Assembly (NCBI GenBank): GCA_945787325.1
Contig: CALZHP010000011.1
Location: 1-48,244, forward strand
Direction: 5' to 3'
Source: an uncultured Desulfobulbaceae bacterium
GTDB lineage: Bacteria > Desulfobacterota > Desulfobulbia > Desulfobulbales > BM004
Length of the DNA stretch: 48,244 nucleotides
In this document: one piece after another, positions 29,359-36,892 of the stretch
Layout of the letters: every line of letters starts with the position of its first letter
Numbering within the stretch: the stretch's first letter is position 1
The notes under the pieces: generated by a model
Databases searched by the model: none
What the model was told of the DNA's origin: nothing
What the model saw: the letters and a program-made list of their open reading frames with translations, nothing else
Program-made: the position numbers and the translations under genes

Positions 29359-30033
29359 ATGGAAGAAAAGGATACAAAGAAGCGTATTTTAGATGCAGCG
29401 GAGCAGCTTTTTGCACAAGATGGTTTTCATGCCACCTCAATGCGTGCTATTACCAACCGGGCAGAGGTAAACCTGGCGGCAGTAAACTATCATTTCGGAT
29501 CTAAGGAAGCTCTTATGGAATCGGTAATCGAGCGCCGTCTTGTACCTCTCAACAAGGTGCGAATCAAACGCCTCGAAGCATTACGTTCTAAAGCAGAGGA
29601 TTCCAGTAAATCCCCTGAATTGAGAGAAGTGCTTATGGCATTTGTCGAGCCAACACTTGCTTACGGGAAATCAGGGCAAGGAGCAAAAGAGTTTATAACA
29701 CTCATAAGTAGATCCATCGCAGAACCCGACGATACAGTACGGAATATTTTCCTGCGGCATCTTAAGCCGTTAATTCATCTTCTTTATGAGACTTTGAAGG
29801 AATCACTTCCCGATCTGCCAAAAGACATTGTTTTTTGGAGACTGCATTTTGTAATAGGTGCAATGAGCCATGCCATGCAGATGGTTGTCAGGTGTCATTC
29901 TGTTATGGAAGATGCCGAATCTCATGAAAAATGTGGTGTAATACCGGATGAAATGATTAATAAAACCGATCCGGAAGCCCTAACTGAGATGTTCCTTGAC
30001 TTTGTTACTACCGGAATGAAGGCGCCGCAATGA
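29359..30033 (+). CDS. TetR/AcrR-family transcriptional regulator
   Basis: This 224-aa regulator has an N-terminal TetR HTH (KRILDAAEQLFAQDGFHATS, then VNLAAVNYHFGSKEALMESV). Its helical C-terminal ligand domain contains FWRLHFVIGAMSHAM, reminiscent of PsrA/CecR-type C-termini. It is the first gene of a four-gene efflux operon and overlaps the outer-membrane factor gene by four bases (ATGA). It probably represses the operon and is released by a toxic or amphipathic ligand; the ligand is unknown. The palindrome at 29290-29306 is the likely operator. Confidence 0.93.
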   Translation: MEEKDTKKRILDAAEQLFAQDGFHATSMRAITNRAEVNLAAVNYHFGSKEALMESVIERRLVPLNKVRIKRLEALRSKAEDSSKSPELREVLMAFVEPTLAYGKSGQGAKEFITLISRSIAEPDDTVRNIFLRHLKPLIHLLYETLKESLPDLPKDIVFWRLHFVIGAMSHAMQMVVRCHSVMEDAESHEKCGVIPDEMINKTDPEALTEMFLDFVTTGMKAPQ

Positions 30034-31445
30034 GCAGGTCAAAAGAACTTATAACAGTGTTAATAGTAGTAGCCTTTTCAATTTCAGGTTGTTCCCTGTA
30101 CAAACCTGAAAATCCAGGTCCAGCCCATGTTCCAAAAAGTTTCATTGAAACATCAGGAAGAATGGGTGAACAGGCTTTAACTGGTAGATGGTGGGAACAT
30201 TTTGGGGATGAAAAGCTAAACAGTCTGATTGAATCAGGTCTCACCATGAGCCCTGATGTTACTCAAGCTTACGCACGTCTTGCTCAGGTTCAAGCTGCAT
30301 TTCACATAACAGATTCTGTCCGCAGCCCTTTTCTCAATTTAGAGGGGCAGGCCAGCCGGGACAAACAGTTCTTTTCGTTTAATGAAAGCCTTGGTAATAC
30401 GTTGCGTTTATCGCTTTCTGCCGGATTTGAACTGGACTTGTGGAAGAAACTTTCTTCGCTCAGCGAAGCGGCCAGGCTGGAAGTTCTAGCATCACGTGAA
30501 GCTGTAAAATCAGTATATATAACACTGTCAACAAGTATTGCCGATCTGTATTATCTTACTGTTGAGCAGAGGGCCCAGTTGAAGCAGCTTGAAAAAATTG
30601 TTGCCTCTTATGCTGATACACTGGTCAGGGTAGAAAGACGTTACCAGGAAGGGATTGCACCGTCACTTGAAGTTTATCAGGCCAGGCAAAATCTTGCCAT
30701 AGCCCGTGCTCGGCGACCGGTTTTTGCAGCTAACCTAGCAAGGGCTGAACATACTTTAGCAGTCCTTATCGGCAGATTTCCTGAAAATAATATTGCTGGT
30801 GATCTTGCCACCCTGCCAACATTGCCGGAAGCATACTCTGCAGGGCTACCTTCAGAGCTTCTTACCCAAAGACCGGATATTGAAGCGGCTTACCTTCGAG
30901 TTCAGGCTCAAGATGCCCGAATTGCCTCCTCTATTGCAGACAGATTCCCATCATTTAACCTAATCGGTAGTTACGGAAGGAATAATCTTGACTTTGGAGC
31001 ATCAACTACCGGGACTTTCTGGAGCTTTCTTATAAATTCAGCAGTACCAGTTATCGACGGTGGCAGACGCAAAGCAGAGGTAGATCGAAACAGGGCAATG
31101 CTGCAGGAAGATATTGCCGTTTATCGGCAGACAGTGCTTAGAGCTTTTCAGGAAGTTGAAGATGCGCTGTCCAATAACAGGACGAGCGAGGAGACCATAG
31201 TTACCCTGTCTGATCAACTGGAAGTTTCATCTGCTAATGTAAGAGCGGCGGAAGATGGTTATTTTCTGGGTCTCAATGATTTACTTACGGTTCAAATCGC
31301 CCAGCGACAGCTTGACGAAGTAAAAATCAGATTGCTCTCTGCCCAAAGACAACTGATTTCAGACAGGATCAGCATGATAAGAACTTTAGGTGGCAACTGG
31401 ATGGAAGAATTTATTGGCCAATACCTCAAGGAACTGAGTCATTAA
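30030..31445 (+). CDS. Outer-membrane efflux factor lipoprotein (TolC/OprM-like)
   Basis: This 471-aa outer-membrane factor belongs to the NodT/OprM group. A lipoprotein signal (VAFSISGCSLYKP) predicts lipidation at Cys21. It is followed by the family pattern WWEHFGDEKLNSLIESGLT, two long coiled-coil TolC repeats (about residues 50-250 and 265-455), ELLTQRPDIEAAYLRVQAQD between them, and DLLTVQIAQRQLDEVKIRLL near the end. It forms the exit duct of the RND pump encoded downstream. It is translationally coupled to the TetR gene. Confidence 0.95.
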   Translation: MSRSKELITVLIVVAFSISGCSLYKPENPGPAHVPKSFIETSGRMGEQALTGRWWEHFGDEKLNSLIESGLTMSPDVTQAYARLAQVQAAFHITDSVRSPFLNLEGQASRDKQFFSFNESLGNTLRLSLSAGFELDLWKKLSSLSEAARLEVLASREAVKSVYITLSTSIADLYYLTVEQRAQLKQLEKIVASYADTLVRVERRYQEGIAPSLEVYQARQNLAIARARRPVFAANLARAEHTLAVLIGRFPENNIAGDLATLPTLPEAYSAGLPSELLTQRPDIEAAYLRVQAQDARIASSIADRFPSFNLIGSYGRNNLDFGASTTGTFWSFLINSAVPVIDGGRRKAEVDRNRAMLQEDIAVYRQTVLRAFQEVEDALSNNRTSEETIVTLSDQLEVSSANVRAAEDGYFLGLNDLLTVQIAQRQLDEVKIRLLSAQRQLISDRISMIRTLGGNWMEEFIGQYLKELSH

Positions 31446-31508
31446 TATTACATATAAAATATTTTAAGCAATATTATCAGATCATCTAATCGAGTAGGGG
31501 ATTCACAG

Positions 31509-32699
31509 ATGAGTTTTCCAAAAACTGCAACAAAAATTATTTTGCCACTTGTCATACTAGCCATTGGCATTTTTGTAACCGTTTTGTTGATAAAAAGCAG
31601 GGAGGCACCTCGTAAGGAGGCTAAAGAGCGACCCGGTGCGCTAGTGCAGGTGTTGGAGTCAGCAAGTGAAGACAGAATGGTAAACGTATATGCAACAGGG
31701 ACAGTACAGGTTGATCAAGAGGTTGAAATAATACCTCAGGTGAGTGGTCGTATAGTAGAAGTTGCATCAGGTTTCCTGGCAGGCGGTTTTTTCGAAAAAG
31801 GAGATCTACTATTTGCTATTGAGGCGATTGATTATGAGTTGGCGGTTGAAAGAGCAAGATCAGTCCTGGCTAAAGCTGAGAGCGATGTTGCCGAAAATGA
31901 GGGTAGGTCACGGATTGCCCGATTAGAATGGGACAGGCTGAACAAGGGAAAAAATCTTGTCCCAAATCCTTTAGTTCTCAATGAACCTCAGTTGAAGAAT
32001 GCAAAAGCGTCTCTTGCTGCTGCTAAGGCATCGCTTCGTCAAACTGAACTGGACCTTGAACGCACAAGAATTATTGCACCGTTTAATTGCCGCGTGCGGT
32101 CCGAACAGATTGGCCCCGGCCAGTATATAAGGTCTGGTGAGAAAGCAGCGGTAATCGCGGGTACTGACACAGCTGAAATCATTGTGCCCCTGGAACTCAG
32201 TGAACTGAGGTGGTTGGATATTTCACGGCAGAGTTCAGATGAAAATGGCTCTGAAGCCACAGTTTCAGTAAAAGTTGATGGCAGCAGGTACACTTGGAAG
32301 GGACGCGTTGTGAGGGCTCTTGGAGAGGTTGATGAAAAAAGTCGTTTAACCCAGGTTGTTGTGAGAGTTGACAACCCATACTCATCCATAGGAGGCAATA
32401 ATAATAACAACTCTCTTGATCTGACCTTGGGCATGTTTGTCGATGTGGTTATCCATGGGCGGCATGAGTCTGATGTTACTGTTCTCCCAAGAAAAGCTCT
32501 GCGAGGCCCTTCCACTGTTTGGATCATGAATGATGACAATAAACTTGAAGTTAGAGACGTTAAAATAGTGCGCTATGATAAGGATACTGTCTGGATAAAT
32601 GAAGGACTGGATTCCGGGGACATGGTTATCCTTACTGCCTTGTCGGGTGGTTCTGATGGAATGAAACTCAGAAGACAGGAACAGGAGGCAGTGAAGTGA
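31509..32699 (+). CDS. RND efflux membrane-fusion protein
   Basis: This is the 396-aa periplasmic adaptor of the tripartite pump. An N-terminal anchor (IILPLVILAIGIFVTVLLI) precedes a lipoyl-like half (VEIIPQVSGRIVEVASGFLA, EKGDLLFAIEAIDYELAVER), an alpha-helical hairpin (about residues 115-180), the second lipoyl half (RTRIIAPFNCRVRSEQIGPG) and beta-barrel and membrane-proximal domains. No lipobox cysteine is present. The terminal GTGA overlaps the pump gene start. Confidence 0.95.
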   Translation: MSFPKTATKIILPLVILAIGIFVTVLLIKSREAPRKEAKERPGALVQVLESASEDRMVNVYATGTVQVDQEVEIIPQVSGRIVEVASGFLAGGFFEKGDLLFAIEAIDYELAVERARSVLAKAESDVAENEGRSRIARLEWDRLNKGKNLVPNPLVLNEPQLKNAKASLAAAKASLRQTELDLERTRIIAPFNCRVRSEQIGPGQYIRSGEKAAVIAGTDTAEIIVPLELSELRWLDISRQSSDENGSEATVSVKVDGSRYTWKGRVVRALGEVDEKSRLTQVVVRVDNPYSSIGGNNNNNSLDLTLGMFVDVVIHGRHESDVTVLPRKALRGPSTVWIMNDDNKLEVRDVKIVRYDKDTVWINEGLDSGDMVILTALSGGSDGMKLRRQEQEAVK

Positions 32700-35600
32700 A
32701 CGGTGCTATCAAATGGATGGCCGGCAACCATGTGGCGGCAAATTTGTTGATGATGCTGTTCATAGTCGGAGGCCTGGTACTGGGCATTACTATTAAACAG
32801 GAGGTTTTCCCGGAGGTCACTCTGGACAGTGTACGGATATCTGTAACATACCCCGGTGCTGGACCTGATGAGGTGGAAGAGGGAATCATCCTGCAGATAG
32901 AAGAGAATATTAGCGGTATTGATGGACTGAAAGAGATTAAATCACTTGCGGTAGAAGGTAACGGCCTGGTGACGGCAATTGTTGAAGATGGAGTAGATAC
33001 CGATCGTTTTCTGCAGGATGTGAAAGCTGAAGTTGACCGCATAATTACTTTTCCGGAAGACTCAGAGAAACCGGTTATAACGAAAGTTTTGAATCGGCGT
33101 GAGGTAGCTTCGCTCGTGGTGTATGGCAATGTACCGGAGAAGACACTGCGAGAGCAGGCTGAAGCTATGCGTGATGACCTGCTTGAACTCGACGAAGTAA
33201 CCCAGGCAGATCTTGGTGGAGTACGCCCTTATGAAATTTCCATTGAGATAACTGAAGCAAACCTGCGGCGTTACAATCTAACATTAGAGCAGATAGCTCA
33301 AACAGTTCGGGTTGCATCTCTTGATCTACCTGGTGGCTCCATCAAAGCGGAAGGCGGAGAAATCCTTATAAGGACAAAGGAGCGCAAATATTATGGTGAT
33401 GGTTATGGTGATATTATCATTCTGGCAAATCAGGATGGATCGACGGTCAAGTTGAAGGATATTGCCAATATTCGAGACGAATTTGAGGAAACAGATCAGT
33501 ATGCGCGTTTTAACGGTATGCCTGCATCTATGGTTTCTGTTTATCGCGTGGGCGACCAGAAGCCTACAGAAATTTCAAAGATTGTTCATGATTATGCCAT
33601 AAAGAAACAGCAGGAAATTCCGGAATCGCTTCACGTAGAAGTATGGAACGACACCTCCGAGCTCCTCGATAGCCGCATGAATCTTCTGATCAGAAACGCG
33701 GTTCTTGGTTTGGTGCTTGTCTTTTTTATCCTCAGTCTGTTTCTTCAGATAAGGCTGGCACTCTGGGTGATGCTCGGTATTCCAATATCTTTTCTGGGTG
33801 CCATGCTATTCATGCCTGCATTGGATGTTTCCATCAATATGATTTCCCTTTTTGCCTTCATTATGGCGTTGGGTATTGTTGTCGACGATGCCATTGTAGT
33901 TGGTGAAAATATTTTTGAACATCGCCAACGTGGCAAGAAATATCTGCAGGCTGCTATTGATGGTGCACGGGAGGTAGCCGTTCCCGTTACTTTTTCTATT
34001 TTGACTTCGGTTGCTGCATTTATGCCACTGGTTTTTGTTACCGGGGCCCTGGGGAAATTTATCAAGGTAATACCCCTTGTGGCCATAAGTATCCTCCTTG
34101 TGTCCCTCATAGAGTCATTGTTTGTGTTGCCGGCCCATCTGAGTCTGGGCAAAGCGCAAAAAGAAACCGGCAAAATATCTCGGGCGGAACGTATGAGAAA
34201 TTATTTTGTTTCTTCCCTTCAACGATTTGTTAAGGGCCCATACCGACGACTGCTTATAAGTAATCTGGAGTATCGTTATGTTGCTTTTGCTTCTGCAATA
34301 GTTATCCTGCTGCTAGCAGTAGGAATCGTTGGAGGTGGTGTAGTTAAGTTTCGCTTTATGCCGATAGTTGACGGTGACCTTATAACTGCCAAGCTCACCA
34401 TGCCTCGCGGTACTCCGGTTTCAGAAACAGCAGAAGTTCATGATTATATAGCCGAAACAGCAAAGAAAGTAGTGGAAAACTATGATGAAGAAAGAGGTGC
34501 GGATGTATCGAGTTTTAGGCAGCTATATTCGGTAGTTGGCGGAACCATCCGAGGAGGTGGCCCCGCTGGAGGTTCTAGTAGTTCCGGGGCACATCTGTCC
34601 AATATTGCACTTCTTCTGAAACCAAGTGAAGAAAGGAGATACCCTGCCGACGCTATTGCCGATAAGTGGAGAACTGAAGTAGGGGATATTGCCGGGATTG
34701 ATTCTCTAATATTTGAGTCTAATCTTATTCAACTTGGAGCAAATATTGATGTCAGCCTGGCTCATGACAATTTTGATATTCTTGTTGAGAGCTCCAGGCA
34801 GCTTAAGGAGGAGCTTGCCGAGTATCCTGGGGTTAGTGACATTGCCGACACATATCCACTGGGCAAGAAGGAACTGAAAATAAGGTTGAAGCCAGCTGGG
34901 CGTACCATGGGAATTACTGAGCAGGAATTGGGCAGGCAGATTCGTGGTGCTTTTTATGGTGCGGAAGCATTAAGACTGCAGCGTAGCCGTAACGAGGTCA
35001 AAGTAATGGTGCGTTATCCTGAAGAGGACCGTAAAAGTTTGTGGAATTTTGAGTCAATGCGCATCAGGACACCTGATGGAGGGAAGATTCCCCTGCATGA
35101 GGCAGCTTTTGTTGAAGAAGGTCGTGGGTACAGCCAGATTAATCGGACGGATCGTAAGCGGGTTATCAATGTGACGGCTACGGTTGACAGCACTGTAGCA
35201 AATGCTGAGGAAATTCTGGCTGATCTTCAAAAAACAACAATTGCTAAGTTGAAACAAGATTACCCTGGTTTTACATATAATCTGGAAGGAGAAGATAAAG
35301 AACGGCGCGAATCTCTGGGAAGTATGCGACAGGGTTTCATTCTGGCCCTTCTTGTGATCTATGCTCTTCTTGCCATTCCATTTAGAAGCTACAGCCAGCC
35401 GTTTCTTATCATGACAGCTATTCCTTTTGGAGTGGTAGGAGCTATCGCCGGGCACCTTATAATGGGATTTGACTTGAGCATGTTGAGCCTTTTTGGAATC
35501 GTGGCTCTGTCAGGCGTCGTGGTCAATGATTCGCTGCTGCTTATCGATCAGATTAACAATAACAGGCGACAGGGCATGGAACGGGAGGAGGCAGTAATCG

Positions 35601-35848
35601 AGGGTGGTATGAGGCGGTTCAGACCGATCCTGTTGACCTCTCTGACAACCTTTTTCGGACTTATGCCAATGATACTGGAAAAAAGTGTACAGGCACAGTT
35701 TCTTATCCCAATGGCTATTAGTCTCGGTTTTGGTATTATGTTCGCGACCGGTATAACTCTTATACTTATCCCCACGTTGTATATGATCCTGGAAGATTTT
35801 CGAAGTATGTTCGGGCTAAATGGTATCCATGAAAACAATGAATATTGA
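32696..35848 (+). CDS. RND efflux pump inner-membrane subunit (HAE-1/AcrB-like)
   Basis: This 1050-aa proton-driven multidrug pump has twelve predicted membrane helices and two large periplasmic loops. TM4 bears the proton-relay aspartates (GIVVDDAIVVGENIFEHRQR), and the second half has LFGIVALSGVVVNDSLLLID. The N-terminal porter motif EVFPEVTLDSVRISVTYPGA is typical. The GTG start overlaps the adaptor stop by four bases. A glycine-serine-rich stretch (GGGPAGGSSSSG) interrupts the second periplasmic domain. The substrate cannot be predicted. A non-coding stretch of about 240 bases with no clear terminator follows. Confidence 0.96.
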   Translation: MNGAIKWMAGNHVAANLLMMLFIVGGLVLGITIKQEVFPEVTLDSVRISVTYPGAGPDEVEEGIILQIEENISGIDGLKEIKSLAVEGNGLVTAIVEDGVDTDRFLQDVKAEVDRIITFPEDSEKPVITKVLNRREVASLVVYGNVPEKTLREQAEAMRDDLLELDEVTQADLGGVRPYEISIEITEANLRRYNLTLEQIAQTVRVASLDLPGGSIKAEGGEILIRTKERKYYGDGYGDIIILANQDGSTVKLKDIANIRDEFEETDQYARFNGMPASMVSVYRVGDQKPTEISKIVHDYAIKKQQEIPESLHVEVWNDTSELLDSRMNLLIRNAVLGLVLVFFILSLFLQIRLALWVMLGIPISFLGAMLFMPALDVSINMISLFAFIMALGIVVDDAIVVGENIFEHRQRGKKYLQAAIDGAREVAVPVTFSILTSVAAFMPLVFVTGALGKFIKVIPLVAISILLVSLIESLFVLPAHLSLGKAQKETGKISRAERMRNYFVSSLQRFVKGPYRRLLISNLEYRYVAFASAIVILLLAVGIVGGGVVKFRFMPIVDGDLITAKLTMPRGTPVSETAEVHDYIAETAKKVVENYDEERGADVSSFRQLYSVVGGTIRGGGPAGGSSSSGAHLSNIALLLKPSEERRYPADAIADKWRTEVGDIAGIDSLIFESNLIQLGANIDVSLAHDNFDILVESSRQLKEELAEYPGVSDIADTYPLGKKELKIRLKPAGRTMGITEQELGRQIRGAFYGAEALRLQRSRNEVKVMVRYPEEDRKSLWNFESMRIRTPDGGKIPLHEAAFVEEGRGYSQINRTDRKRVINVTATVDSTVANAEEILADLQKTTIAKLKQDYPGFTYNLEGEDKERRESLGSMRQGFILALLVIYALLAIPFRSYSQPFLIMTAIPFGVVGAIAGHLIMGFDLSMLSLFGIVALSGVVVNDSLLLIDQINNNRRQGMEREEAVIEGGMRRFRPILLTSLTTFFGLMPMILEKSVQAQFLIPMAISLGFGIMFATGITLILIPTLYMILEDFRSMFGLNGIHENNEY

Positions 35849-36091: not shown

Positions 36092-36892
36092 ATGGACTTG
36101 AAAAAAATAAACCTTGTGAACCTTGTTCGCAAGGATTATGGAACGGTTGCCAGGAATGAGCCTGGAATTGCCATAGCTTCCAGTTGCTGCGGCAACGATC
36201 CCGACTCTCAGGAAAACCTGCTTAAGACGGGGCGCATGCTTGGCTATTCTGAAGAAGAATTAAAGGTTGGGCTTGGTGAGTCGAACCTTGGCCTTGGTTG
36301 TGGTAATCCCCAGGCGATGGCGGAGCTTAAGGAGGGTGAAACAGTCCTCGATCTTGGAAGCGGTGCAGGATTTGACGCCTTTCTGGCAGGTATGGCTGTT
36401 GGTTCACAAGGGAAGGTTATAGGAGTTGACATGACTCCAGATATGTTGACCAAAGCACGGGAAAACGCAGTGAATCTGAAATATGAAAATGTTACTTTCA
36501 GGCTGGGCGAGATAGAACATTTGCCGGTAGCGGATGCAAATGTTGACATAGTTATTTCAAATTGCGTTATTAATCTTTCTGTAGATAAACAACAGGTTGT
36601 CAACGATTCTTTCAGGGTATTGAGGCCTGGGGGAAGAGTTGCATTTTCAGATATTCTGCGAGTAGGAGAGTTGCCGCAGGAGGTTTTGGACAACCCCTCC
36701 GCATACAGTGGCTGAATAACTGGCGCGGTCTCGGTCGAGACCATGAAAGAGTATCTCGAAAATGCTGGATTCGCCGATATAGAGTTTATTAACAAGGAAA
36801 ACAGCGAGGATATAATCCGCCACTGGAATTTTGGTGAAGGTGTTGAGAAAAGCGTTGTTTCCGTCTATATAAAGGCCCGTAAACCCAACTGA
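36092..36892 (+). CDS. arsM: Arsenite methyltransferase, predicted selenoprotein (Sec at codon 208)
   Basis: This is an ArsM-family SAM-dependent arsenite methyltransferase. The SAM site is VLDLGSGAGFDAFLAG. Arsenic-binding positions visible are Cys70 (GLGCGNP) and Cys158 (SNCVINLS). The frame meets TGA at 36713-36715, exactly where ArsM has its third arsenic-binding cysteine (AYSG-stop-ITGAVSVE), then continues with family-like sequence to 36892 (266 aa). Cys158 to the TGA is 50 residues, the spacing of Cys174 and Cys224 in Cyanidioschyzon ArsM. A SECIS-type hairpin follows the TGA, so selenocysteine insertion is far more likely than a nonsense mutation. The role is methylation of As(III) for detoxification. 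Sel genes are not in this window. Confidence 0.88.
36716..36742 (+). promoter_or_regulatory. Bacterial SECIS-like element in arsM
   Basis: GGTCTC (36727-36732) pairs with GAGACC (36737-36742) around the loop GGTC. Seventeen bases separate the TGA from the loop. The loop begins with G, as bacterial SECIS rules require, and GGUC resembles the SelB-contacted loop of E. coli fdhF. Confidence 0.8.

Follow-up and report, generated by a model that had tools for sequence, protein, structure and literature searches.

A predicted selenocysteine at an arsenic-binding position of an ArsM-type arsenite methyltransferase from an uncultured Desulfobulbaceae bacterium

The window analysed here is a 48,244-nucleotide stretch of DNA from an uncultured Desulfobulbaceae bacterium (CALZHP010000011.1, positions 1 to 48,244). 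Positions 36092–36892 of its forward strand hold an arsM coding sequence of 266 residues. The frame opens with ATG at 36092, runs through a TGA at 36713–36715 (codon 208) and continues to 36889, where it is closed by a TGA stop at 36890–36892. Codon 208 is the only interruption, with no other in-frame TGA. Upstream lies an efflux operon (TetR/OMF/HlyD/RND), with a TetR regulator, an outer-membrane efflux protein, an HlyD-type adaptor and an RND pump in a row at 29359–35848 (+) and a gap of 243 bases between the pump and arsM; a chemoreceptor gene follows downstream. On another contig of the same genome, genes for an Acr3 As(III) exporter and an ArsR-family regulator lie side by side.

Family membership was established by a match to the NCBIfam model NF008823 and by a 61-row ArsM alignment that covers the whole product. 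Read through the TGA, the protein scored 319.3 bits against NF008823 (cut-off 263), a full-length match spanning profile positions 6–269 of 272. Under translation table 11 the open reading frame ends after 207 amino acids, the length that the preliminary description had predicted from standard gene callers, and this truncated form still reached 274 bits, also above the cut-off, so that the wrong annotation would escape notice. The claim of the same description that the frame stays ArsM-like past the TGA up to 36892 holds. Standard annotation would cut arsM at residue 207 and lose an essential arsenic ligand; correct annotation would recover arsenic methylation in selenium-using bacteria.

Three positions of the protein correspond to the arsenic-binding residues of characterized enzymes. 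Cys70 (codon at 36299–36301, +) is the predicted third As(III) ligand, equivalent to CmArsM Cys72, and Cys158 (36563–36565, +) is a predicted As(III) ligand equivalent to CmArsM Cys174; both are Cys in 61 of 61 aligned ArsM sequences, and Cys70, Cys158 and Cys/Sec208 are invariant across the alignment. Residue 208, a predicted selenocysteine (Sec), aligns with the Cys of the ‘GECLxGA’ motif in solved ArsM chains, which is Cys224 in CmArsM and Cys206 in human AS3MT. Fomenko et al. reportedly tested the residue in a mammalian enzyme in 2007. The spacing between Cys158 and residue 208 is 50, matching, as had been stated for the algal enzyme, that of CmArsM Cys174 and Cys224 (PMC5552862) and also that of human AS3MT Cys156 and Cys206 (PMC3877260), both of which are required for the two methylation steps of the human protein (PMC3877260). 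In the Cys-type enzymes CmArsM, CrArsM and human AS3MT, the fold and the arsenic-ligand positions are the same as in the window protein, which differs in having Sec in place of the last arsenic-binding Cys and in its length (~266 residues, against 306–387 in the algal and human structure chains). An AlphaFold2 model of the window protein had a mean pLDDT of 89, and its best fold matches were ArsM and AS3MT structures; the TM-scores to ArsM of ~0.6 reflect the difference in overall length.

Comparison of homologues confirmed that the TGA stands where an arsenic-binding Cys is otherwise found. Among 176 homologous stretches, column 208 was Cys in 136 and TGA in 40 (the latter including second copies of two genes, the window gene and that of genome G047, and 14 stretches from a divergent second family), with no other residue and no TAA or TAG. 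The preliminary description would have abandoned its reading had most close homologues carried neither Cys nor TGA, and no such relative occurred in this set. A scan of viral contigs returned Cys-type ArsM relatives only. Within a sample from the window's phylum, TGA-type genes filled the eleven top ranks behind the window gene, indicating that the Sec form is common there. Compared with L002 and L003, its relatives from Nitrospirota, the window gene was as conserved after the TGA as before it, with changes mainly in third codon positions. These comparisons bear directly on the possibility that arsM is decaying and its TGA is a true stop, or that a Cys-type arsM was missequenced. Such an origin is compatible with the draft state of the assembly and with the single base that separates the Cys codons TGT and TGC from TGA. 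However, relatives from independent genomes have TGA at the same codon, and the constraint on the gene is equal on both sides of the TGA. With a hairpin and Sec machinery also present, as described below, decay or error is very improbable.

Downstream of the UGA, a bacterial SECIS (bSECIS)-like hairpin, GGUCUC-GGUC-GAGACC, occupies 36727–36742 (+), with the stem at 36727–36732/36737–36742 and the loop at 36733–36736. The published bSECIS model calls for a loop of 3–9 nt with G in the first two positions, a stem of 4–16 bp, a UGA-to-loop distance of 16–37 nt and a minimum free energy of at most −7.5 kcal/mol (PMC13188914). With 6 bp, the loop GGUC, a distance of 17 nt and −8.3 kcal/mol for the hairpin alone, the window element fits this model. 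The 6-bp stem, the GGTC loop and the fit to bSECIS rules given in the preliminary description therefore stand, but its 17 bases run from the TGA to the loop and not to the base of the hairpin. When the same peptide was recoded synonymously, an equally good rule-abiding hairpin arose in 3 of 5000 sequences. Simple dinucleotide shuffling of this 48-nt region gave no significance on its own (z −1.2; 29 of 200 shuffles as good), so the case for the hairpin is carried by the recoding test and the comparison among genes. After the TGA, 24 of 24 Sec-type ArsM genes and 14 of 14 genes of the second family had a hairpin that obeyed the rules for loop, stem and spacing; several of these hairpins, chiefly Clostridial, were weaker than −7.5 kcal/mol. 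A hairpin reaching −4 was present in 21 of 24 Sec-type ArsM genes versus 28 of 136 Cys-type genes, counts that ignore relatedness; the Mann-Whitney comparison of the two types likewise treated related genes as independent. Most Cys-type genes had no strong hairpin, and their median was about zero despite a higher GC content.

Family searches of the window genome recovered SelA, SelB, SelD and a tRNA-Sec with anticodon UCA. This is the complete set that the preliminary description had proposed to look for, whose absence would have told against a Sec reading. The SelD of this genome has a TGA of its own in the N-terminal active-site motif. A tRNA-Sec was also detected above threshold in the genomes of the TGA-type L002 and G047 genes; none was found in the L003 genome, possibly because that draft is incomplete, or in two Cys-type genomes. 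The machinery also speaks against a variant code in which TGA would stand for Cys, Trp or some other amino acid throughout the genome. Cys in relatives at column 208 would agree with such a code, but the UCA-anticodon tRNA-Sec together with SelA, SelB and SelD points to Sec decoding, and arsM has a single internal TGA and itself ends with TGA, so that a variant code has a negligible probability. Considering the same-codon TGA, the constraint, the hairpin, the Sec machinery and the terminal TGA, we rejected pseudogene, sequencing error and variant code alike. Judged from the sequence, it is almost certain that translation of TGA 208 places selenocysteine at the arsenic-binding site.

The distribution of Sec was further analyzed in an ArsM tree built without column 208. 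L002 and L003 were the partners of the window gene (93/73), and all three fell in a clade comprising 14 Sec-type ArsM genes (100/100). A second Sec clade (100/100) was Clostridial; its class is that of the Eubacteriales genome that served as centre. The gene of G047 (L111/L135), an ArsM from the window's order with TGA at the same column (SCUISG), formed a third, long-branched Sec case; it has its own hairpin, equalled by 7 of 5000 recodings, and is possibly an independent gain of Sec. An AU test of a single Sec origin gave p = 0.18, or p = 0.046 without the long-branched L135; a single origin is thus not firmly rejected, and multiple origins are only favoured. On balance, Sec probably replaced Cys more than once in ArsM, in the clade that unites the window gene with its relatives from Nitrospirota, in the Clostridial clade and possibly in the long-branched member of the same order, which would mean that selenium at the last arsenic ligand has been favoured repeatedly. 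Natural Sec/Cys pairs of ArsM could be used to test the contribution of selenium at the arsenic site.

Sec-containing ArsM is not a new family, and the window gene is a new example of it. The novelty implied by the preliminary description is unsupported, since such proteins are already catalogued (PMC2398784, PMC13188914, PMC9312934). A 2008 survey of the GOS data counted eight Sec-type and 245 Cys-type arsenite methyltransferases and placed the enzyme among the families of both prokaryotes and eukaryotes (PMC2398784). A 2026 review lists arsenite methyltransferase as an experimentally verified selenoprotein with the motif UxxG (WP_011987699.1), citing Fomenko et al. 2007 (its reference 87; PMC13188914). 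That protein belongs to the same family as the window protein (PRK11873/NF008823) and likewise has one Sec in a UxxG motif, which reads U-I-T-G in the window; its lineage differs, and the likeness is one of family and motif. NCBIfam also describes double or multiple selenoproteins in which a related methyltransferase domain contains Sec, namely ArsM_AhpD_UU (NF041537), ArsM_DUF2284_UU (NF041536) and MTase_UXPK_star (NF047649), a group tabulated with the motif UxxG (PMC13188914). Against these models the window protein scored 149–162 bits, well below the cut-offs of 460–575, and it lacks the fused second Sec domain of the double selenoproteins.

Based on these comparisons, we infer how the protein may work. 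SelB, with Sec-tRNA(UCA), would recognize the hairpin right after UGA 208, and Sec would be inserted. As(III) would be held by Cys70, Cys158 and Sec208, with the methyl groups supplied by S-adenosylmethionine (SAM), and a selenenylsulfide between Cys158 and Sec208, instead of a disulfide, would be re-reduced between rounds. The natural substrate might be something other than arsenite, such as another metalloid, a selenium compound or a thiol compound. No ars genes adjoin arsM in the window, and a scan of the genes flanking L002 and L003 found none either, as might be expected of an enzyme with another substrate. Nevertheless, Cys or Sec stands at every ArsM Cys position, and the protein scores above the NF008823 cut-off, making a different substrate unlikely. 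Taken as a prediction from sequence, the window gene very probably encodes a functional Sec-containing arsenite SAM methyltransferase, a reading that the Acr3 exporter and ArsR-family regulator on the other contig also favour.

The same genome contains a second, divergent ArsM-related methyltransferase gene (L134, contig G000:C35, 1764–2609, −), whose product is 37% identical to the window protein. It has a TGA at the column of codon 208, followed by a strong hairpin, with Gly at the Cys158 position and Val at the Cys70 position. A further in-frame TGA lies near its N-terminus (GG-U-PP), and most relatives (L136–L144, L147) share it in the form [x]UPP. Should this N-terminal Sec partner the methyltransferase Sec, the site would contain a pair of selenols and lack Cys. 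The protein scored 257–282 bits against the NCBIfam double-selenoprotein models, under their cut-offs because the C-terminal domains of those models are absent. We presume that it may be the catalogued MduS. Directly downstream, a 127-amino-acid open reading frame (1288–1671, −) precedes a gene for a LysR-type regulator; its product presumably resembles YedF, which is linked to selenium metabolism. Elsewhere, at L115–L127 and similar loci, ArsM-like domains that have all three Cys residues occur within frames of ~1000 amino acids, and such fusion frames are found in many genomes of the window's order.
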